NCBI GenBank assembly: GCA_903837495.1
Contig: CAILUT010000063.1
Span: 1 to 64,000 of the forward strand
DNA: 64,000 bases
Direction of reading: 5' to 3'
From: an uncultured Flavobacteriales bacterium
GTDB lineage: Bacteria > Bacteroidota > Bacteroidia > CAIKAF01
In this document: piece after piece, positions 1-63,222 of the stretch
How the letters are laid out: every line of letters starts with the position of its first letter
Position numbering within the stretch: position 1 is the stretch's first letter
Position numbers and translations under genes: made by a program
The notes under the pieces: model-generated
What the model saw: only the letters and a program-made list of their open reading frames with translations
Database searches by the model: none
What the model was told of the DNA's origin: nothing

Positions 1-430
1 CTTTGGTGCCATTCTGCTAAGCTACCCGCGGCTTAAATTCCTTACGCCAATCTATCCCCAAAAACACCCCATTCGTGCATTCGTGGCTTTTTAGTGGGTA
101 GTTATTAGTGGGTAGTGGGTAGTTGGTAGTTCTTTGGTGCCATTCTGCTAAGCTACCCGCGGCTTAAATTCCTTACGCCAATCTATCCCCAAAAACACCC
201 CATTCGTGCATTCGTGGCTTTTTAGTGGGTAGTTATTAGTGGGTAGTTGGTAGTTCTTTGGTGCCATTCTGCTAAGCTCCCCGCGGCTTAAATTCCTTAC
301 GCCAATCTAGCCCCAAAAACATACCATTCGTGCATTCGTGCCTAAGCTACCCGCGGCTTCACAAACACAGAACAAAGGTGGTTTTTTTCAAAATCATCAC
401 CCAAGCCCAAATTTATTCTCAGTAAAATAG
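1..430. repeat. Tandem array of three ~125-131 bp units plus a conserved tail
   Basis: Three head-to-tail units begin at 1, 132 and 256 with ctttggtgccattctgct. Each unit carries a gtgggtagt-rich stretch and a 19-bp motif (cattcgtgcattcgtggct, last copy altered) at 70-88, 201-219 and 325-343. The tail at ~361-430 (aacaaaggtgg... then cccaaatttattctcagt) recurs at 42970-43035. No open frame of interest is seen. The same units return in diverged form at 42660-43060, so this is a dispersed family and not a local slip. The array continues off the left edge. Confidence 0.85.
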
Positions 431-1271: not shown

Positions 1272-1289
1272 AACAGGGTGTTGATTTGG

Positions 1290-1435
1290 GCGGTTGCGGG
1301 CTTTCACAGGTTGTCCGCGGCTGTAGGCTTTATGCCCAGCGGCTTTGCGGTGGCTCCTAAAGTCGCCTCCGCAGCACGCGGGCATTAAAGCCCACAGCCT
1401 TGCGGGCAACCTTGTTCAATCCCTACCGCGGGCGG
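1290..1435 (+). repeat. MITE-like GC-rich inverted-repeat element, copy 1
   Basis: Begins gcgggctttcacaggttg, contains a variant of the central block (ggctcctaaagtcgcctccgc-like) and ends ttcaatccctaccgc. It lies just past the TauE/SafE stop codon. It is the most diverged full-length copy of the eight in the window. Confidence 0.75.
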
Positions 1436-1450
1436 CGGGGAGTCCGTATA

Positions 1451-1549
1451 TCATCTGGCTTTTGAAATGGCTTGCGCAGCGGCATCGACATGCTCATCCA
1501 GGCAATACATCTCCCACTGATTTCGGGGTTTTCCTTGGATGCATTTCAT
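1451..1549 (-). pseudogene. Remnant of a transposase start (IS1182-like), copy 1
   Basis: On the minus strand an ATG at 1549 opens a 32-codon frame whose first ~25 residues contain IQGKPRNQWEMYCLDEHVD. It then runs into unrelated sequence and stops at 1451. This resembles the N-terminus of IS1182-like DDE transposases (family assignment from memory). A second, better-preserved copy is at 2991-3128. Only the 5' end of the gene survives, so it cannot be active. Confidence 0.6.
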
Positions 1550-1690
1550 AAATAAAAACACCGATTTTAGGGGGAACCATCAATAAACTGCCTGAAATTT
1601 ATCAACAATTGAAATGTTTAAATGGGGGGGGGTATTAAACGGTCTGGCGGTTGGTATAGGCAAAGTAGGCGATTACGGGCTTCAAACGTA
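1479..1690. repeat. ~210 bp imperfect direct repeat, left copy
   Basis: This stretch matches 3059-3265 with scattered mismatches, including gattfcggg-free core segments such as ctcccactgatttcggggtt and acaattgaaatgtttaaatg. It covers the transposase start, its upstream region and the first arm of a hairpin. The two copies flank the Fic gene in direct orientation. Confidence 0.75.
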
Positions 1691-1755
1691 TCAAACCATT
1701 ACAATGTTAAGCTGGGCTACAACCTTTGAATTTACTGCCGTTTCGCCTATTTTTC
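1663..1755. other. Possible attC-like hairpin at the 3' end of the Fic gene
   Basis: taggcga at 1666-1672 and tcgccta at 1743-1749 are inverted copies about 70 bp apart. The second arm overlaps the Fic stop codon. The first arm aligns with the first arm of the stronger hairpin at 3237-3340. The layout is like an integron recombination site, but the arms are short and no integrase is in the window, so this is tentative. Confidence 0.3.
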
Positions 1756-2880
1756 ATATACATTCTTGCCGCCTGGCATTTCTCTTAGTTCATAATTTGT
1801 ACTTCGTCCACCACTTGCTTCTTTTTGCAATACATCCTTCTTAATCAAATCTTGAATATCTCGAAGAGCAGTATCTTGAGAGCACTTATTGATTTTGCCC
1901 CATTTCGAGGTTGTTAACTTTCCATCAAATCCATCCAGAAGCCTATTTATTATTTTTTGTTGCCGATCATTGAGAATTGTGGTGGAATGTATTTTCCAAA
2001 ATTCTGCTTTATGAAGTGTTTTCGATAAAGTCCCCTCTGTGGAGTCAATAGCATTTATTAAACATTGCAAAAACCACAAAATCCATTCTGTTATATCTGA
2101 ATTTCCTTTTTGTGTTTTTTCAAGTTTTTCATAATACTGTTTCCTTTCCACTTTAATTTGCGCCGACATACTGTAGAATCGCCTGATGCTTTTGTCAGAA
2201 CGGGCCAATGTCATATCTGTAATTGCTCTTGTAATTCGCCCGTTTCCATCGTCAAATGGATGAATTGTAACGAACCATAAATGAGCAATAGCGGCTTTTA
2301 GAACCAAATCTGTTTCTTTCTCGTTTTCAAACCATTCGAAGAATTTTTTCATTTCTAGTTCTATCCTGTCTGAGCTTGGAGCTTGATAGTGAACTTTTTC
2401 TTTTCCCATAGGTCCAGATACAACTTGCATTGGACCAATCGTGTCTTTTCTCCAGTCTGCAACTGTTAATTTATTTAGATTGCTCCAACCGGATGGGAAC
2501 AACGCTGCATGCCAACCAAACAATCTGTCTTTAGTTAAAGGCAATTCATACCTCTGTGTAGCATCAAGCATCATTTCAACGATTCCGTCAACATGGCGTT
2601 CCGATTCCACTGCCCCGGCAATATCAATTCCTAGTCGACGAGCGATGGAGGAACGTACTTGTTCAATTTCTAAAAACTCACCTTCAATTTCAGATGATTT
2701 TATAACATCCAAAGTAAGCGTATTCAAAACCGCTTCATTCTGCAAATCAAAACCCAGTGATTCCATTTTACCAAGAATTCTGCCCTGTTTATTTCTAGCT
2801 TCACCAAGTTTTGTCATCACTTTTTTATTATCCCAAGTGAAGTCGGTCCAATTCTCTTTTTCGTGGATATAAATTTTCAT
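1747..2880 (-). CDS. Fic family protein with N-terminal DUF4172 domain
   Basis: The protein is predicted to be an AMP- or nucleotidyl-transferase of the Fic family, modifying a protein hydroxyl. Residues ~1-80 look like DUF4172 (starting MKIYIHEKENWTDFTWD). The Fic core carries HPFDDGNGR near residues 207-215, matching HPFxDGNGR with the catalytic His. The C-terminal ~70 residues look like a winged helix. The family inhibitory motif was not identified with certainty. I chose the ATG at 2880 because GGAG lies just before it and it matches the family start; the frame also stays open to a TTG at 2901. The gene is AT-rich compared with its neighbours and lies between direct repeats and transposase remnants, which suggests transfer. 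Targets are unknown; stand-alone Fic proteins often act in self-regulation or toxin-antitoxin-like roles. Confidence 0.88.
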   Translation of the reverse strand: MKIYIHEKENWTDFTWDNKKVMTKLGEARNKQGRILGKMESLGFDLQNEAVLNTLTLDVIKSSEIEGEFLEIEQVRSSIARRLGIDIAGAVESERHVDGIVEMMLDATQRYELPLTKDRLFGWHAALFPSGWSNLNKLTVADWRKDTIGPMQVVSGPMGKEKVHYQAPSSDRIELEMKKFFEWFENEKETDLVLKAAIAHLWFVTIHPFDDGNGRITRAITDMTLARSDKSIRRFYSMSAQIKVERKQYYEKLEKTQKGNSDITEWILWFLQCLINAIDSTEGTLSKTLHKAEFWKIHSTTILNDRQQKIINRLLDGFDGKLTTSKWGKINKCSQDTALRDIQDLIKKDVLQKEASGGRSTNYELREMPGGKNVYEK

Positions 2881-2974
2881 TCTCCGCAATTTATGCGTCA
2901 AATATACCCCTTATTCTCCGCAAATAAAACTTTCTCCGCATAATATGCTTAGATTAAAGCGGTTAATCTCCGCA
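2881..2974 (-). promoter_or_regulatory. Four TGCGGAGA direct repeats upstream of the Fic gene
   Basis: Read on the minus strand, TGCGGAGA occurs at 2881-2888, 2915-2922, 2933-2940 and 2967-2974. The starts are spaced 34, 18 and 34 bp, a symmetric pattern. The copy nearest the gene also supplies the ribosome-binding GGAG. The regular array suggests an operator; the Fic protein's own C-terminal winged helix is one candidate binder (inference). Confidence 0.5.
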
Positions 2975-2990
2975 CTGTCGTTTTTTTAGC

Positions 2991-3128
2991 TTAGAGGTAA
3001 ATGGTGTCCCGATGCGACAATGTTTCCCCGAATAGGTCAATCCGACGAACCTCATTATCGGCATCGACATGCGCATCCAGGCAATACAACTCCCACTGAT
3101 TTCGGGGTTTTCCTTGGATAAATTTCAT
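2991..3128 (-). pseudogene. Remnant of a transposase start (IS1182-like), copy 2
   Basis: An ATG at 3128 on the minus strand opens a 45-residue frame beginning MKFIQGKPRNQWELYCLD and continuing with DADNEVRRIDLF, a good match to the N-terminus of IS1182-like transposases. It stops at 2991, after only about a tenth of a full transposase. The sequence beyond is the Fic promoter region. It pairs with the copy at 1451-1549. Confidence 0.65.
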
Positions 3129-3265
3129 AAATAAAAATACCGATTTTTAGGGAGAAATAGGCAATAAACAGGCCAAAATTTATTAACAATTGAAATGTTT
3201 AAATGGGAGGTTATTAGACAGTCTGACGTTTTGCGGCTACAAGAAGTTGGCGATTTCGGAATCGA
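3059..3265. repeat. ~210 bp imperfect direct repeat, right copy
   Basis: Matches 1479-1690. It includes the transposase start, ~110 bp upstream of it, and the first arm of the hairpin at 3237-3340. Fic and its promoter lie between the two copies. Confidence 0.75.
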
Positions 3266-3340
3266 AAACTATCTGCCACCACTGGAATTGATACGAAGCA
3301 CAAATGTTCATTTAACCACTGAACCGCCAATTTCTTGTAG
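3237..3340. other. Large attC-like hairpin
   Basis: ctacaagaagttggcg at 3237-3252 and cgccaatttcttgtag at 3325-3340 are inverted copies (15 of 16 positions pair) separated by 72 bp. The outer flank, gtgctgttatagg, resembles sequence seen again upstream of the next gene (3876-3882). Paired arms around a variable centre just past a gene's 3' end are how integron attC sites look. The canonical GTTRRRY core was not found, so this is a candidate only. Confidence 0.4.
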
Positions 3341-3362
3341 GTGCTGTTATAGGAAGATGCCA

Positions 3363-3830
3363 CTATATCCTATTTAGTAAATTAATATATGGTTCGTTGT
3401 CTGTGTCGTTTAAATCTAATTCCCATCTCTCCCAAAGCCTAAGCAAAATATATTTCGCAGCTTCCTTAGAATTACTTCTATAACCACTTAGTCTTGCGTC
3501 AAAACTCCAATTCCATGTTCCCCAATTATCGTCCCAACTTATTCTAAATAACGCCCAATCGTACTTTTCATCATTTAGAGGGATAATATAATACTCATTT
3601 TGAATACTCCAAGTTGTCCAATTGTCAACTTCAGAGTCAATTCCGCCAATAAAAATTGCCTCTTTTGGAATACTCGATTCCATATTTTCTTTTACTTCAG
3701 AAGCGTCCAACTCTTCATCATCTTCCATCTCAGAATCTGATTCCGAAGTTTCTTCATTGTCTTCTACTTCTGTCAATTTAGATGAAAATGGTAGTGTAAA
3801 TTCATCAAAATTAATTATTGGGTTTACCAT
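3363..3830 (-). CDS. Acidic hypothetical protein in the accessory island
   Basis: A 155-residue protein of no family I recognise. Residues ~20-55 are very rich in Glu, Asp and Ser and probably disordered. The second half is rich in Trp and aromatic residues (DNWGTWNWSFDARLSGY) and looks folded. There is no signal peptide or membrane helix. The gene is AT-rich like the Fic gene and is bounded by hairpin-forming sequences on both sides (3237-3340 and 3864-3920), so it may be a single-gene cassette. Coding status is supported by length, an ATG start and composition, not by homology. Confidence 0.6.
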   Translation of the reverse strand: MVNPIINFDEFTLPFSSKLTEVEDNEETSESDSEMEDDEELDASEVKENMESSIPKEAIFIGGIDSEVDNWTTWSIQNEYYIIPLNDEKYDWALFRISWDDNWGTWNWSFDARLSGYRSNSKEAAKYILLRLWERWELDLNDTDNEPYINLLNRI

Positions 3831-18710: not shown

Positions 18711-18740
18711 GCTTTTTTCTGGCCTTAAAAGCACATTTTT

Positions 18741-18885
18741 GGGCGGCCGCCGGGCTTTCACCGGTAGTCCGCGTCCAGCAGCAGCGGGCCCAGCGGCTTT
18801 GCGGGGGCTCCCAAGGTCGCCTCCGCAGCTCGCGGGCCCCCTGCTGCCGGCCTTGCGTGCTACCGGGTTCAATCCCTGCCGCAGA
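18741..18885 (+). repeat. MITE-like GC-rich inverted-repeat element, copy 3
   Basis: A well-preserved copy: left end gccgccgggctttcaccgg, core ggctcccaaggtcgcctcc, right end gttcaatccctgccgc. The left end and the reverse complement of the right end match over ~27 bp with a few mismatches. It lies just after a terminator. Confidence 0.85.
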
Positions 18886-35640: not shown

Positions 35641-35789
35641 GGCCTGCGGCAGGGATTGAAGCGGGTAGCCCGCAATGGGTGCGGGGCCTGGCCCGCGAGG
35701 CGCGGAGGCGACCTTGGGAGCCCCCGCAAGCCCGCTGGGGCAGCCCCCGCAGCCGGCGGACTACCGCTGAAAGCCCGGCTGCCGCCCTA
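35641..35789 (-). repeat. MITE-like GC-rich inverted-repeat element, copy 5
   Basis: Inverted, well preserved: gcggcagggattgaagcggg, core ggaggcgaccttgggagcc, end ggactaccgctgaaagccc. The terminal repeats pair over ~27 bp. The stop codon of the neighbouring lipoprotein gene lies at its edge. Confidence 0.85.
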
Positions 35790-40720: not shown

Positions 40721-40728
40721 TACCTTTG
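40721..40728 (+). promoter_or_regulatory. Candidate -7 element for purF
   Basis: TACCTTTG, 18 nt before the ATG at 40747; exact TAnnTTTG match. Confidence 0.5.
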
Positions 40729-40746
40729 TGGCTGGAATCCCCAAGC

Positions 40747-42564
40747 ATGAGCGACCCCTTAAAACACGAATGCGGCCTGGCCCTGATTCGCCTTAAAAAA
40801 CAAAGCAACAGTGCCGCGCGCCCTCCATTGGGACAAGCCCTACAGAAAATGTATCTGCTGCTCGAAAAAATGCACAACCGGGGGCAAGATGGTGCTGGAT
40901 TGGCCTGCTTGGCTTCCGATACTCCGGCCGGGTTTCCGCCCATTCTCCGGGCACGTTCGGTGGCGGCACAACCCATTCTTCAAATCATTCAACATATTGA
41001 AGAACAGCGAAGTAGGCCCAATGTCCCCCTGCGTTTTGAAGGCGATGTGTACCTGGGCCATGTGCGCTATGGAACCTATGGAACGTACGGCATCGAATCT
41101 TGCCACCCCTTTTTTCGCGACAGCCCTTGGAAAGAAAAGATGCTTTGTTTGGCCGGAAATTTTAACTTAACCAATACCGAAGACCTTTTTCAGCAGTTGG
41201 TCGAACTTGGGCAGCACCCCAGCCAAACGGCCGATACCGTAACGGTTATGGAGCGCATGGGCCATTTTTTAGACCAAGCATTGGGGGCAAAAGAAAGCGG
41301 AGGGCGGCCCAGCAATCTTCCCGATTTTGAATTGATTCTTCGAAAAACCTTTCAAAAATTGGACGGTGGATATGCCATTGGCGGCTTTACCGGAAATGGC
41401 CATGCCTTTGCGATTCGCGACCCCCAAGGCATTCGGCCTTGCTTTTGGTACGAAAACGACCAATTGATTGCTGTTGCCTCGGAACGTCCGGCGCTACAAA
41501 CCGTTTTCCATGCCGAATTAACCGAAATTCAGGAGCTGAACCCTGGACAAGCCCTTTTAATTTCGCCCGAAGGTCAAGGGCGTTTGGTGCAGGTTTTAGA
41601 ACCCGGGTTGGCAAGTGCCTGTTCTTTTGAGCGCATTTACTTTTCTAGAGGTACCGATGCCGATGTGTATGAGGAACGCAAAGGATTGGGCGAACAGTTG
41701 GCCGCCCCCGTGCTTGAAGCCCTACACGAGGGGCTTGAAAATGCGGTGTTTTCGTTTATACCAAATACGGCCGAGCTGGCATTTTATGGTTTGATCAAGG
41801 GCATTGAATCCCGCATTGAAGAGCAAACCGCCCGGCAGCTTTACGCCGAAATGCCCCAGTCTGAATCGGAAATTCTGGCCCTGCTGCGCCGAAAAGTACG
41901 GGTTGAAAAAGTCGCTGTAAAAGACGCCAAATTGCGCACATTTATTACCGACGACAGCCACCGCAGCGATTTGGTTCAACATGTGTACGACATTACCTAT
42001 GGTTCCCTGCGGCCTGGCATCGACAGCCTGGTGGTGGTTGACGACAGCATTGTGCGCGGAACTACGCTAAAAGAAAGCATTCTTAAAATGCTGGACCGGT
42101 TAAAGCCGGTGCGCATCTTGGTGGTAAGTTCTGCTCCCATCATCAAATACCCCGATTGCTACGGAATCGACATGGCGAGGTTGGGCGATTTGGCCGCCTT
42201 TCGGGCGCTTCTAGCCTTGCTCTCGGAAGCCGGCCTCAACTCCGAACTCAAGCAAACCGAGGCCAACATCTTAAGGGCCAGCGAACAAGGCTTGGACGGG
42301 GAACGCAACTGGGTGGCCAATCTGTATGCTCGATTTAGCGACGCAGAGCTGGCCCAAAAAATGGCCGAACAACTTTGCCCGGGGGGAGTACAAGCCCAAA
42401 TCAAACTCGTATTTCAATCCATCGAAGGCCTACACAAAGCTTGCCCCAAGCATACAGGCGATTGGTATTTTAGCGGAGAATACCCTACTCCTGGCGGTTT
42501 TCGGTTTGTAAATCAGGCCTTTTTAAAGTTTGTTCAGGGCGAAAACAGCCGAGTACATGGCTAA
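40747..42564 (+). CDS. purF: Amidophosphoribosyltransferase (Bacteroidota type)
   Basis: A 605-residue enzyme for the first step of purine synthesis, making phosphoribosylamine from PRPP and glutamine. The N-terminal glutaminase domain has its nucleophile as Cys9 after MSDPLKHE, so a short propeptide would need removal. HNRGQDGAG and the TVTVMERMGHF region follow. The phosphoribosyltransferase domain carries the PRPP loop VVVDDSIVRGTT near residue 430. It is longer than E. coli PurF (505) but usual for this phylum. The last ~46 codons are duplicated 650 bp downstream. Confidence 0.88.
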   Translation: MSDPLKHECGLALIRLKKQSNSAARPPLGQALQKMYLLLEKMHNRGQDGAGLACLASDTPAGFPPILRARSVAAQPILQIIQHIEEQRSRPNVPLRFEGDVYLGHVRYGTYGTYGIESCHPFFRDSPWKEKMLCLAGNFNLTNTEDLFQQLVELGQHPSQTADTVTVMERMGHFLDQALGAKESGGRPSNLPDFELILRKTFQKLDGGYAIGGFTGNGHAFAIRDPQGIRPCFWYENDQLIAVASERPALQTVFHAELTEIQELNPGQALLISPEGQGRLVQVLEPGLASACSFERIYFSRGTDADVYEERKGLGEQLAAPVLEALHEGLENAVFSFIPNTAELAFYGLIKGIESRIEEQTARQLYAEMPQSESEILALLRRKVRVEKVAVKDAKLRTFITDDSHRSDLVQHVYDITYGSLRPGIDSLVVVDDSIVRGTTLKESILKMLDRLKPVRILVVSSAPIIKYPDCYGIDMARLGDLAAFRALLALLSEAGLNSELKQTEANILRASEQGLDGERNWVANLYARFSDAELAQKMAEQLCPGGVQAQIKLVFQSIEGLHKACPKHTGDWYFSGEYPTPGGFRFVNQAFLKFVQGENSRVHG

Positions 42565-42643
42565 TTTCCTCAGCACGAAAAGTCCCAGCGCAAGGTAAAA
42601 CTCCGCGGGGCATTCATTGTTCCCGGCCGGTCGGCATATTCCA
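42424..42643. repeat. 220 bp direct repeat, left copy (purF end + TonB end fragment)
   Basis: Matches 43074-43293 at a constant offset of 650 bp, with about 15 differences by eye. It includes the intact end of purF, the short spacer, and a fragment of the end of the TonB receptor gene. Confidence 0.92.
42570..42643 (-). pseudogene. 3' fragment of the TonB receptor gene
   Basis: The last ~24 codons of the receptor, ending in Cys instead of the Trp of the intact copy, followed by a stop. It has no start and arose by the 650-bp-offset duplication. Confidence 0.85.
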
Positions 42644-42659
42644 CCTGACTTCCGCGTTT

Positions 42660-43060
42660 TAACACCCAATCCCAAATTTATTCTCAGGAAAATCAAGAGG
42701 GGCAGCAGGGCTTATGAAAAAACGGGAGTAATGGACAAATTTCATGCTGTAAATTGCTGTATCCGTTGCTGTGCATAGCTTTGAGGCACCCGAAAACAAA
42801 CCATTCGTGCATTCGTGGCTTTTTAGTGGGTAGTTGTTAGTGGGTAGTGGGTAGTGGGTAGTTCTTAGGTGCAATTCGGCTAAGCTCCCCGCCGCTCACC
42901 TTCCTTGCTCCAATCTAGCCCCAAAAACACCCCATTCGTGCATTCCTGGCTAAGCCCCCCGCGGCTTAACAAAGAACAAAGGTGGTTTTCTTCAAAATCA
43001 ACACCCAAGCCCAAATTTATTCCCAGTAAAATGAAGGGTTGCAAAAGAGCTTATGAAAAA
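42660..43060. repeat. Interspersed repeat block between the two duplicated gene ends
   Basis: Two ~60 bp direct repeats, each with cccaaatttattc near its start and cttatgaaaaaacg near its end, bracket the block (42661-42725 and 43001-43058). Between them are a gtgggtagt-rich stretch and the 19-bp motif at 42802-42820, with an imperfect second copy at 42933-42951. This is the same family as the array at 1-430. No gene is present. Confidence 0.85.
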
Positions 43061-43073
43061 ACGCGGAAGCCAA

Positions 43074-43213
43074 GAAGGCCTGCACAAAGCTTGCCCCAGG
43101 CATACAAGCGGGTGGTATTTTAGCGGAGAACACCCTACTCCTGGCGGTTTTCGGTTTGCAAATCAGGCCTTTTTAAAGTTTGTTCAGGGCGAAAACAGCC
43201 CGGTTCATGGCTA
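43074..43213 (+). pseudogene. 3' fragment of purF
   Basis: The last ~46 codons of purF (starting EGLHKACPRHTSGW, ending VHG) without any start codon. Several amino-acid changes compared with the intact copy show that it is not under the same constraint. Confidence 0.88.
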
Positions 43214-43293
43214 ATTCCCTCACCACGAAAAGTCCCAGCGCAGGGTAAAACTCCGCGGGGCATTCATTATTCCCGGCCGGTCGGCATATTCCA
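43074..43293. repeat. 220 bp direct repeat, right copy
   Basis: Partner of 42424-42643. Here the TonB receptor end is the intact one and purF is the fragment. Confidence 0.92.
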
Positions 43294-45601
43294 AACTGCC
43301 CATGTTTTTCACCAAAAACGACACCCGGCAATTCCATTTGGGGATGTGGTACTGCAATCGAACATCTACAATCCAATCTCCGTTCCTGTGTTTTCGATTC
43401 AACAAATAGCTTTCGGTGAAATCTGGAATGGCCAGTGAAATGACGCCAAAGTTCGGATCGTATTTTTCAATAAAAGATTGGTAGCGCACATTGACTCCAA
43501 AACCCCAGCGCTTCCAATCCCCCTGAAGATCTAGGCGAACCATGTGGCGGCTGCGCATGGGCAGCAGCAAATCGGCCTCGGGGCTGCCTTGTAAATTTTG
43601 GGAAAAAGTGCCGGCCATGCGTTCTAAAAACAGTCCTACATTGTGCATGTCTGGATTTTGGTCAAGGTTGGTTCCAAAGCTGTAGGTGTAGCCAAGCATG
43701 GGTTGAAGGCGAAGGGGGCCTTTTTTCCAGGAACCTTGAACAGACCATTCAAATCCGGCAATGCGCGCCCTGCCAGTATTCAGCGATTTCCAGCCCAGCC
43801 AAGAAAAGCTTGTGTCGGTTCCTGGGGGCGGGTAAAACCCTAGGCTGTATTCGGTCATGCGGTCAAATTCCATCCAAAACAAGGCGGCATCAAAACTGCC
43901 CGAGCCGTTTTTTCCTAGTTTGAATCCGGTCTTTATGCCCAGTTCGCTGTTGATTCCCGTTTCGGGCAGCAAATCAAAATTTGGGAAGATGTTAAGGCCC
44001 CCCACATTCCCCCTTAAAAAGCGTTCGGCCAAGCTGGGCATGCGGTAGGATTGGCCCAGCGAAAAACGCAAAAAGCTTTGTTCTGACACCCGATAATTGG
44101 CTCCCAGCCGAAGTACAGGAATTGACCCTTCGACCAACAAATCAGAGCCATTTATTTCATAGCGAATGCCCAACAGCACATTCAAGCGGTTAAAGCTGCC
44201 TTCAACCTGCCCAAAGACGGCGGCCGAGAACAATTCAAAGAAGCGGGCAGGATTGCCCAGGGAATCGAGCTGCAGTTCGGGCACGAACAAATTGCTTTGG
44301 GTCCAGCCATAGCTGCCGGTCATGCCCAGGGTGGCTACTATTTTTTTGTTCCAAAACCGCTGCTGAAATTGATAATCGGCCAAGGCAATGTTGGCAATGT
44401 CATCAATATCGGTTCCCGTTCCTACCCGAAGTTTCCGAAAAAACCGGGTTTTTAGTTGGTGGTTGGCTTTGCCGCGGTGCCAAGACCAGAAGGGGTCTAT
44501 GTTAAAAAAAGAATAGCGGTCGTCGCTGTAAGCAAAGGCACGGTACGCATTGGCGTCAGACCCCGACCAAAGCAAAAACCGGTTGCTGTTTTCGTACATG
44601 GCAGTGGCATTAAGCCCTACAACCATTCCGGGCTTTGAGGGGATTCGATACCGGGTTTTTAGGTTAAACCGCAGCCGCTGTTCGTCGTTAAACTGCCTAA
44701 AACTTCGTTCTATGTGGGCATTTCCGCCCAGCACCAGGTCGAAATTTTGACCTATTTGTTCGGAATGGCAAAAAAACAAGCCTTGGGCATGGGGCGTTTC
44801 GCCGCTTGAATACCAGCGTTGTTCTGGCGTGCGGGGCTGGTCCACCACATCGGAATACACTCCCAGCCTCGTTTCGGGCTCGGCCCCCGGCCAGGTTGTT
44901 AGTACATGTATAATCCCGTTCATGGAGCCCGAACCATACAGCACCGAACTGGCTCCTTTTATGATTTCAATTTGTTCGGTCATTTCTAAGGGCAGGTACT
45001 GCCATTCCGAATTCATTTGGTCGGCCGCCAAAATAGGCAGGCCGTCCAGCAAAACCGATACCCGGCTGCCCACCCCATAAGCATAGCCCGAACCCCCTCG
45101 AATGTTGGCTTGCCCGTCTGAAACCTGAACGCCTGGAACTCGATTCAGAATCTCAGCGGTTTCCACGGCCGAGGTGTTTTTGATGAGCTCTCGGCTTACT
45201 ACTTCAATGCTTACGGTTTCTTCGGCGGCCCTTTTTCCGTAGCGGCTGCCGGTAACCACCACCGCATTTAAAGCCGTTGCCGCGGGCCTTAAGCGAATCT
45301 CGGTTCCTGTATCCGACACGCGAAGCCGAACCTCCATCGGTGTATAGCCCACATACCGCACCAAAACCTCCGTTTCTGCTTGTTCCAATTCAAACCGAAA
45401 TTCTCCGGTCGGGGTGCACAGCCCCAAAACCTCTTTACCCTTTTGAAGCGTAGCTCCAGGCAAACCTTCTCCCGTTTCGGCATCCAAAACTTTCCCGAAA
45501 TAAACAAACCGGTCGGCTTGTGCATGAAGCCCAAGGCTTAAAACCCAAAAAACCAGCCAAATGAACCGGCTTTTAAGCTTTGCTCCCAAAGAAAATCCCA
45601 C
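43220..45601 (-). CDS. TonB-dependent outer-membrane receptor
   Basis: A 793-residue receptor. After a signal peptide (ends LGLHAQ) comes a carboxypeptidase-like beta domain (FGKVLDAETGEGLPGATL, residues ~35-115). The plug follows (VVVTGSRYGKRAAEETVSIEVV ... VPGVQVSDGQANIRGGSG ... EIIKGASSVLYGSGSMNG) and then a ~560-residue barrel ending SFTLRWDFSW, with the terminal aromatic residue needed for barrel insertion. The ligand is unknown; no siderophore or vitamin genes are adjacent. The start is a GTG at 45601, 9 bp after the upstream gene's stop. The 3' end is partly duplicated at 42570-42643. Confidence 0.93.
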   Translation of the reverse strand: MGFSLGAKLKSRFIWLVFWVLSLGLHAQADRFVYFGKVLDAETGEGLPGATLQKGKEVLGLCTPTGEFRFELEQAETEVLVRYVGYTPMEVRLRVSDTGTEIRLRPAATALNAVVVTGSRYGKRAAEETVSIEVVSRELIKNTSAVETAEILNRVPGVQVSDGQANIRGGSGYAYGVGSRVSVLLDGLPILAADQMNSEWQYLPLEMTEQIEIIKGASSVLYGSGSMNGIIHVLTTWPGAEPETRLGVYSDVVDQPRTPEQRWYSSGETPHAQGLFFCHSEQIGQNFDLVLGGNAHIERSFRQFNDEQRLRFNLKTRYRIPSKPGMVVGLNATAMYENSNRFLLWSGSDANAYRAFAYSDDRYSFFNIDPFWSWHRGKANHQLKTRFFRKLRVGTGTDIDDIANIALADYQFQQRFWNKKIVATLGMTGSYGWTQSNLFVPELQLDSLGNPARFFELFSAAVFGQVEGSFNRLNVLLGIRYEINGSDLLVEGSIPVLRLGANYRVSEQSFLRFSLGQSYRMPSLAERFLRGNVGGLNIFPNFDLLPETGINSELGIKTGFKLGKNGSGSFDAALFWMEFDRMTEYSLGFYPPPGTDTSFSWLGWKSLNTGRARIAGFEWSVQGSWKKGPLRLQPMLGYTYSFGTNLDQNPDMHNVGLFLERMAGTFSQNLQGSPEADLLLPMRSRHMVRLDLQGDWKRWGFGVNVRYQSFIEKYDPNFGVISLAIPDFTESYLLNRKHRNGDWIVDVRLQYHIPKWNCRVSFLVKNMGSLEYADRPGIMNAPRSFTLRWDFSW

Positions 45602-47586: not shown

Positions 47587-47737
47587 TGGGCGGCAGCCGG
47601 GCTTTCGGCGGTAGTCCGCAGCTGCCGGGGGCTGCCCCAGCGGGCTTGCGGGGGCTCCCAAGGTCGCCTCCGCGCCTCGCGGGCCAGTCCCCGCCATCTG
47701 TGCGGGCTACCTGCCTCAATCCCTGCCGCGGGCGGCC
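47587..47737 (+). repeat. MITE-like GC-rich inverted-repeat element, copy 6
   Basis: Well preserved: gcagccgggctttcggcgg, core ggctcccaaggtcgcctcc, right end ctcaatccctgccgcggg. The last codons and stop of menD lie inside its right end. Confidence 0.87.
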
Positions 47738-55159: not shown

Positions 55160-55310
55160 GAGCGGCCGCGGTAGGGATTGAGCCAGGTTGCCCGCAAGGG
55201 ACCGGCCTAGCTGCCCGCGAGGTGCGGAGGCGACCTTGGGAGCCACCGCAAACCCGCTGGGCAGCAAGGCTGGAACCGCGGACAACCGGCGAAAGCCCGG
55301 CCACCGCCCA
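55160..55310 (-). repeat. MITE-like GC-rich inverted-repeat element, copy 7
   Basis: Inverted: gcggtagggattgagccagg, core ggaggcgaccttgggagcc, end ggacaaccggcgaaagccc. It lies just after the second glycine-rich gene. Confidence 0.85.
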
Positions 55311-55329
55311 CATGTAAAACCCTTATATC

Positions 55330-55443
55330 TTACAGCAATTCGTTGGCCACATTCGCCAACTCGCTGCGCTCGCCTTTTTCCAAGGCAACATGGGCATGAA
55401 TGGGGTGGCTGTGCATGCGGTCAATCACATAGCTCAACCCATT
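55330..55443 (-). pseudogene. 3' fragment of the phoH-like gene
   Basis: The last ~37 codons of the phoH-like gene, with its stop at 55330. The surrounding 55325-55443 matches 56555-56673 with only two base differences by eye (one silent, one Thr to Ala). There is no start. The match ends inside the 19-bp motif cattcgtacattcgtggct at 55440-55458. Confidence 0.92.
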
Positions 55444-56509: not shown

Positions 56510-56559
56510 TCCTCCTGCTGCTTAGTTATGAACAATACCCAAAATTCTATGCAAATATC

Positions 56560-57891
56560 TTACAGCAATTCGTTGGCCACATTCGCCAACTCGCTGCGCT
56601 CGCCCTTTTCCAAGGTAACATGGGCATGAATGGGGTGGCTGTGCATGCGGTCAATCACATAGCTCAACCCATTGCTTTGCGTATCCAAATACGGCGTATC
56701 AATCTGATAAATATCGCCGGCAAACACCACTTTCGCCCGATCGCCCATGCGGGTTACAATGGTTTTTATTTCGTGGGGAGTCAAATTTTGCGCCTCGTCC
56801 ACAATAAAGAAAATCTGCGACAAGCTGCGCCCGCGGATGTAGGCCAAAGGGGTAACCACCAACTTTTCTTGTTCCAGCATTTCAGGAATTTTTTGCCCCT
56901 CTTTGTCGCGCTCGTCAAAGCTATTCTGAATAAACTTCAGGTTGTCGTACAAAGGCTCCATGTACGGATTCAGCTTGCTTTTTATGTCGCCCGGAAGAAA
57001 TCCAATGTCTTTGTTGCTCAGGGGCACCACCGGACGGGCCAAGTAAATTTGCTTGAAATCGCGGCGCTGCTCCAGTGCCGCAGCCAAAGCCAACAGCGTT
57101 TTTCCGGTACCCGCAACGCCCTGAATGCTTACCAATTTCACCTCGGGATTCAACAACGCGTGCAGGGCAAAGACCTGTTCGGCGTTTCGGGGTTTGATGT
57201 TGTAGCAGGGACGTTTTTCAACCCGTTCAATGCAGCGGCTTACCGGATTGAAAAAGCAGAGCACCGAGGTTTTGTTGTTTTTTAAAATAAAGTAGTGGTT
57301 GGGCAGGGGGTCTTTAGAAAACAAGGCTTTTCTCGGCACAAATCCTTCGTTGTACAGGGCATCGATGGTGTCTTGAGAAACGTCCTCAATTTGGCTTTTT
57401 CCACGGTACAGCTCATCGACGTTTTTCACCTTTCCTGTTTCAAAGTCTTCCGCCGAAATGTTGAGCGAACGGGCTTTGATGCGCAGGTTTACGTCTTTGC
57501 TTACCAGAATTACTTTGCGGTTGGGGTTTTGTTGCTGCATCCGCAGGGCCACGTTCAATATGCGGTGGTCGGCCTTATCGGAACCAAATATTTTGCGCGC
57601 ATCGGGTTCGGCGGTTTCTTCCATCATTACCCGAATGTTGCCCAAGCCTTTTCCGTTCAAAGGAATCCAGGTGTTCAGCGAAGAGCCTTTGGAATACTGG
57701 TCCATGATTCGAATAAACTCTCGGGCCTCGAAATTCTTGGTTTCATTCCCTTTTTTAAAGGTGTCTAACTCCTCAAGCACCGAAATGGGCACCACCACAT
57801 CGTGTTCGGCAAACGATTCGATGGAGGCGTGGTTAAACAATATCACAGAGGTGTCAAGCACAAAAATTTTGGTCGGCGCTTTTCTGGGCAT
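56560..57891 (-). CDS. PhoH family protein with N-terminal PIN domain
   Basis: A 443-residue cytoplasmic protein. The PIN nuclease-like domain is residues ~8-150 with acidic residues Asp13, Glu41 and Asp105/108 in place (FVLDTSVILFN, GSDKADHRIL). The PhoH ATPase follows, with Walker A GVAGTGKT at 258-265 and Walker B FFIVDEAQN near 345. Such PIN-PhoH (PhoH2-type) proteins act as RNA helicase/RNases. The start at 57891 gives MPRKAPTKIFVLD. Its 3' end is duplicated at 55325-55443. Confidence 0.93.
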   Translation of the reverse strand: MPRKAPTKIFVLDTSVILFNHASIESFAEHDVVVPISVLEELDTFKKGNETKNFEAREFIRIMDQYSKGSSLNTWIPLNGKGLGNIRVMMEETAEPDARKIFGSDKADHRILNVALRMQQQNPNRKVILVSKDVNLRIKARSLNISAEDFETGKVKNVDELYRGKSQIEDVSQDTIDALYNEGFVPRKALFSKDPLPNHYFILKNNKTSVLCFFNPVSRCIERVEKRPCYNIKPRNAEQVFALHALLNPEVKLVSIQGVAGTGKTLLALAAALEQRRDFKQIYLARPVVPLSNKDIGFLPGDIKSKLNPYMEPLYDNLKFIQNSFDERDKEGQKIPEMLEQEKLVVTPLAYIRGRSLSQIFFIVDEAQNLTPHEIKTIVTRMGDRAKVVFAGDIYQIDTPYLDTQSNGLSYVIDRMHSHPIHAHVTLEKGERSELANVANELL

Positions 57892-63037: not shown

Positions 63038-63124
63038 ATAAACTGGGTTGCAAATGTACCTTTTTTTTTTGTTATTCCAAATCTCGCCGCCCAAAATTGG
63101 CAGGGCTGTTTTGTTGTAATTTTT

Positions 63125-63222
63125 GGGGCGGTCGCGGGCTTTCGCCGGTAGTCCGCAGCAACTGGCCTTGGGCCCAGCGGGGTTGCGGGCAACTCGGTTC
63201 AATCCCTACCGCAGGCCACCTC
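63125..63222 (+). repeat. MITE-like GC-rich element, copy 8, internally deleted
   Basis: Both ends are present (gcgggctttcgccggtagtc and gttcaatccctaccgcagg), but the central ggctcccaaggtcgcctcc block is missing. It lies upstream of tRNA-Val and close to the end of the SprB-repeat gene. Confidence 0.8.

Follow-up and report, generated by a model that had tools for sequence, protein, structure and literature searches.

The window (the whole 64,000-nucleotide stretch analysed here, which begins at the first base of contig C63) carries a convergent pair of genes, one encoding a purF-like amidophosphoribosyltransferase and the other a TonB-dependent receptor, and the junction between their 3' ends is present twice (Table 1). 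A repeat search of the window returned 42424-42643 and 43074-43293 as a direct repeat of 220 nt with 94% identity and a spacing of 650. Once an inverted repeat fixes the ends of the intervening element, the duplication comes to 219 bp, with 205 of 219 positions identical, on either side of an insert of 431 bp. An earlier note on this DNA had described a junction segment of about 220 bp present twice at a 650-bp offset, with each gene kept intact by a different copy, and both statements agree with what is found here, the open reading frame list placing the purF end in copy 1 and the receptor end in copy 2. The inserted 430 bp of that note is real as an insert; its length is 431 bp, and the 17-bp inverted ends had gone unmentioned. 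The purF-like product matches the NCBIfam model TIGR01134 with an E value of 1.4e-36, which lies under that model's cut-off, and its counterpart in G005, a genome of the same genus, aligns at 89% over residues 4-612. The flush duplication scores 177, compared with a maximum of 3 among 72 mixed flank pairs and of 8 among 500 shuffles, and chance is therefore excluded as its origin.

Table 1. Features of the purF/TonB junction (positions in the window).
Feature	Positions	Strand	Remarks
purF-like amidophosphoribosyltransferase gene	40726..42564	+	last 140 bp inside duplication copy 1
Target-site duplication, copy 1	42425..42643		holds the purF end; its TonB end is free
Non-autonomous IS1634-type element (MITE-like), 431 bp	42644..43074		each end carries an inverted repeat that abuts the duplication
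Left terminal inverted repeat CCTGACTTCCGCGTTTT	42644..42660	+	core with 0 mismatches of 12
Subterminal 64-bp segment, first copy	42661..42724		repeated at the other end, 84% (repeat family D2)
Internal repeat array, CCATTCGTGCATTCGTGGC units and GTAGTGG heptamers	42725..42999		repeat families D3 and D4
Subterminal 64-bp segment, second copy	43000..43063		repeat family D2
Right terminal inverted repeat	43058..43074	-	core with 2 mismatches of 12
Target-site duplication, copy 2	43075..43293		holds the TonB receptor end; its purF end is decaying
TonB-dependent receptor gene	43220..45601	-	stop inside copy 2; Pfam PF00593 E 1e-32, PF07715 E 2.2e-22

The inverted repeat at the ends of the insert is of the CCTGACTTCCGC type and spans 17 bp. 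No long frame lies between these ends, the longest stop-free stretch being 78 codons. The internal array belongs to a family found at many places in the window's own genome (G000), where an 870-bp query covering the region yields 90 matching stretches, often at contig ends. The insert shares its repeat family with window positions 1-430, as had been proposed, at 86-90% identity over 88-248 bp. The inner array also lies at the ends of many other G000 contigs (e.g., C13, C15, C40, C47, C52, C54, and C56). Repeats of the array probably broke the G000 assembly, and transposase-bearing copies may be missing from it.

The block was searched for in 60 genomes, that of the window among them, and six matched. 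Outside G000 the terminal segments of the block were matched only in G005 and G056, and three further genomes (G016, G027, and G037) match only 35-41 bp of the inner array. In G005 the convergent purF/TonB pair has one junction and no insert: window segments 42201-42641 and 43073-43999 align to overlapping stretches of a single G005 locus (2967-3407 and 3189-4115 of L083). The window duplication is therefore a target-site duplication. The purF end is also single in G002 and G003, so that the insert and the second copy are new in the window's lineage. The proposal that block and duplication arose in one event is supported by this empty site, as well as by other copies of the block that have flush duplications of their own (57 of 57 bp in L112 and 23 of 24 bp in L047). 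A plain tandem duplication of the junction, with the repeat array entering between the copies only later, would give the same final order. Such a history has a negligible probability, since no more than a base separates the element ends from either copy, neither duplication nor insert is present in G005, and the same coincidence would be needed again in L112, L047, L165, L171, and L153.

The two copies of the duplication differ at 14 of 219 sites, and the changes can be polarised by G005. In the purF part eight changes fall in copy 2, seven of them altering an amino acid, and two in copy 1, both silent. The TonB part has two changes in copy 1 and one in copy 2, the latter silent (codon read by eye), while the single intergenic change lies in copy 2. 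Such a pattern would follow from the use of copy 1 by purF and of copy 2 by the receptor. Copies that have diverged and are unequally constrained cannot be a product of assembly. Although the same repeat family terminates many contigs of this assembly, an artefact is thus hardly conceivable, given 14 differing sites and the placement of eight of the ten purF-part changes in the copy that purF does not use.

The terminus of the element was found in 24 stretches, all with Bacteroidota titles, including Thermaurantimonas, Lutibacter, and Salinimicrobium, names that we take to belong to the phylum Bacteroidota; viral contigs gave no match to it. Complete elements of 1641 and 1642 bp are present in L153, from a Bacteroidales metagenome-assembled genome, and L160, respectively. 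The transposase of L153 belongs to the IS1634 family (NF033559, E 8.8e-111, 371 bits against a cut-off of 100; Pfam DDE_Tnp_1, E 1.8e-14). The 26 bp from 42644, at the left end of the window element, match the transposase-gene end of the L153 element exactly and include what read as the last transposase codons, GGG TGT TAA. Flush direct repeats accompany transposase-bearing copies as well, with 39 of 39 bp in L153, 73 of 75 bp in L165 (G005), which has the same 12-bp ends, and 148 of 152 bp in L171 (G143), and the complete element of L160 and L174 has none. The transposase-bearing element of G005 and the window element have only 12 bp in common at each end. G005 has one transposase copy, with a TAG inside, and no match to an IS1634 transposase was found in G000. 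The transposase that served the window element may have been lost, may be unassembled, or may never have been resident. Two contigs of G056, which belongs to another family of the class, break off within an element that starts with the window element's terminus (L126 1-126 on C105 and L127 1-124 on C8) and whose sequence resembles the 3' end of an IS1634-type transposase gene.

Judged by its sequence features, the window element is a non-autonomous (MITE-like) derivative of the IS1634 family. It has terminal inverted repeats shared with the family, a partner element with an IS1634 transposase, no transposase of its own, a length below about 1 kb, and several copies. Availability of a transposase in the host, which is not a structural feature of the element, is not seen in G000. 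The IS1634 family in general makes AT-rich target duplications of 5-6 bp, and the window has 219 bp. A duplication of 5-6 bp does not define membership, since the review that states this length itself names exceptions with long repeats, IS1549 and IS1634 having variable ones of 8-514 bp in the passages concerned (PMC2266710).

G000 and G005 each match the left end of the gene-less element at ten places, of which some represent the second subterminal copy. Both ends are present in L112 of G005, whose 57-bp duplication is perfect, and L047 in G000 has a duplication of 23 of 24 bp. L037 has a damaged right end and at best 11 of 12 bp. In L113, L114, and L122 duplications of about 47, 37, and 37 bp are seen and the right end is absent. 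The expectation of the earlier note that the block would always come with a duplicated gene end is not supported: L117 has only 7 of 8 bp, a match attainable by chance, and some duplicated targets are intergenic. Blocks of the kind that the same note had set against its own reading do occur: at L116, L118, L119, and L049 no duplication was detected, and no intact right end was found there either. As judged by eye from their flanks, L047 and L119, and likewise L049 and L118, look like shared older insertions. A one-ended insertion of the retroelement type was considered for the copies with a precise left and a ragged right end (L113, L114, and L122). It was dropped because later deletion of the right end together with the start of the right copy always leaves the remainder looking flush, and because L047 retains the right end missing from its orthologue L119 (orthology being by eye, from the flanks).

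Duplication lengths were then compared across complete copies of the family. The loci came from genomes of the class (12 of 395) and of the phylum (48 of 395), to which L153, L160, and L166 were added, for a total of 46; they represent the best matches first and a part of all matches, and were not sampled at random. The tests for ends and flanks left 30 loci, of which 29 were distinct; eight had been left out for want of an accepted pair of ends and eight for a flank shorter than 50 bp. L160 and L174, a repeat of it with identical flanks, were treated as one; L218 was excluded as a repeat of L183; and L215 and L243, whose end pairs are doubtful, were kept in the denominator. L165 is one of the eight loci without an accepted pair of ends, probably owing to a broken frame, and stands outside this count; its ends and its 73 of 75 bp were measured separately.

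Duplications of at least 34 bp flank 19 of the 29 distinct complete Bacteroidota copies, with lengths of 34, 39, 45, 49, 53, 75, 88, 90, 93, 108, 125, 127, 131, 150, 152, 171, 325, 407, and 629 bp (median 108), the last of which extends to the end of a contig and is possibly artefactual. Fourteen of the 19 are perfect. The search for ends favoured long duplications among candidate ends, a bias gauged by a null of mixed pairs, which scored at most 5 in 100. No duplication was found at the other ten of the 29. Sister copies within one genome (G320) have 0 (L180), 131, and 325 bp. Direct repeats that are long and vary from copy to copy are thus found at both kinds of element, with 219, 57, and 24 bp at the MITE copies and 34-407 bp, and in one case 629 bp, at the complete ones. 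A 10-bp helical period was not detected among 16 of the lengths (statistic 1.1 against a null 95% value of 5.0). The 3' end of an open reading frame lies inside the duplication at four of 11 sites, a small number in which selection is a confounder.

A T precedes the element at 18 of the 19 junctions on the left and at 15 of the 19 on the right (33 of 38, P 6e-14 against a background of 0.28), and the positions before it are T- and pyrimidine-rich. In the perfect cases this T lies inside the duplicated target, which places it outside the element. The cuts that DDE transposases make in the two strands of a target usually have a fixed spacing of a few bases. The same local taste at both ends, at very different distances, suggests separate strand joins, with each end choosing its own site. 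A T-rich site at each junction is also what two separate insertions would leave, and it could be that two nearby insertions in sister chromosomes, each with a short duplication, recombined through the element, the distance between the sites becoming the duplication; the ten of 29 copies lacking one could then be the reciprocal product. This is quite unlikely, as it requires two close insertions every time, while 14 of the 19 duplications, which come from many genomes, are perfect, and the G320 sisters stand at 131 and 325 bp.

The segment 42644-43074 is very probably a transposed non-autonomous element with IS1634-family ends, joined in trans at sites 219 bp apart on opposite strands. A transposase supplied in trans would join the two element ends to opposite target strands at this distance, and fill-in of both strands would then copy 219 bp on each side. 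The TonB receptor gene would be cut 74 bp from its end and purF about 140 bp from its own; the long copy would give back both gene ends, and the spare halves would then drift. For the Bacteroidota IS1634 family as a whole, the chances appear evenly balanced that a long variable target duplication is the normal product, with each end joining its own T-rich site without a fixed stagger and the distance between joins free over tens to hundreds of bp, perhaps on strands that are already opened. If the distance is indeed free, the elements and their gene-less derivatives can land in the coding ends of two genes and break neither. A long duplication can render an insertion into two gene ends harmless.

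Long variable direct repeats were previously described for IS1634 of Mycoplasma mycoides and IS1549 of Mycobacterium smegmatis, which, as reviewed, resemble the window element in having inverted ends and in belonging to a DDE transposase family, and for which, according to the 2008 review, there was no mechanistic model (PMC2266710). The window element differs from both in lacking a transposase, in its 431-bp length, in its repeat array, and in its occurrence in Bacteroidota. Non-autonomous IS1634-family derivatives are also described from Methanosarcina, where MITEs related to ISMba11 and ISMac10 measure 247-249 bp (PMC3852290). The last column of the table in that paper, taken here as direct-repeat length, gives 6 and 0 for them, as against 219, 57, and 24 bp here (PMC3852290). 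BrickBuilt of Porphyromonas gingivalis is likewise a Bacteroidota MITE with an inner tandem-repeat array, having leader and tail ends; these are reported as closest to those of ISPg1 and ISPg9 and are not of the CCTGACTTCCGC type, and passages of the paper report no long duplication (PMC4596501). ISPfe2 (PMC3281130) and ISGka5 (PMC8024623) share the transposase family, but their observed insertions, in the passages concerned, have 6-bp duplications. Within the open-access literature no title or abstract was found that reports long duplications as a rule in Bacteroidota or in a MITE. With numerous complete copies whose ends are exact, duplications that are perfect at lengths of 34-407 bp, sister copies in one genome that differ in duplication length, and a T at both junctions, the present sample makes the mechanistic question workable.

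A second gene end in the window, that of phoH, is also duplicated, with 119 bp (55325-55443 and 56555-56673, 98%) around a 1111-bp insert that carries an acyltransferase gene (Acyl_transf_3) and has a G+C content of 0.41 compared with 0.51 for the window. The target is single in G005. IS1634-type ends were not found on this insert (6 and 7 mismatches of 12). On one side its join with the target falls at CCCATT, a sequence shared with the array unit, and the boundary lies in the array-like CCCATTCGTACATTCGTGGCT; joining by short homology is possible. The suggestion that one mechanism made both the phoH and the purF/TonB cases is not supported, the 1111-bp insert being without the ends. A process yielding a long duplication without transposon ends may nevertheless act in this genome, and the purF/TonB duplication could in principle reflect such a repair event, in which the filling of a staggered break trapped a piece of resident repeat DNA, with no part played by a transposase. 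We consider this most improbable, for both copies of the duplication directly adjoin an inverted repeat of the purF insert, the same base marks the flush junction at other copies of the element, and complete transposase-bearing elements have the same ends and the same kind of duplication.

A survey of C31, C43, and the window for flanking duplications gave 22 pairs, and the purF pair alone among them carries the ends on either side. In L201 (4301-6800, corresponding to G000 C31 23301-25800) an 867-bp direct duplication of 93% identity with a 766-bp spacer is present, without IS1634-type ends. The pair 1480-1678 and 3059-3259 (83%), around a Fic-domain gene, is not taken for a target duplication, since the sequence of its right copy is dispersed (with copies in C50, C6, and C3 of G005 and C1 of G002) and G005 lacks window 1441-1779. 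These two segments represent a dispersed repeat of about 200 bp flanking the Fic/DUF4172 gene, and G005 has no counterpart of the stretch that holds the left one. An Rfam search of the window gave two tRNAs only. A further dispersed repeat of about 145 bp, without an Rfam match, occurs on both strands of the window (1275-1434, 18738-18884, 35641-35787, 47587-47736, 55163-55323, and 63120-63189); none is among the matches listed for G001 and G004, and G005, G002, and G003 have at least about 40 matches each.
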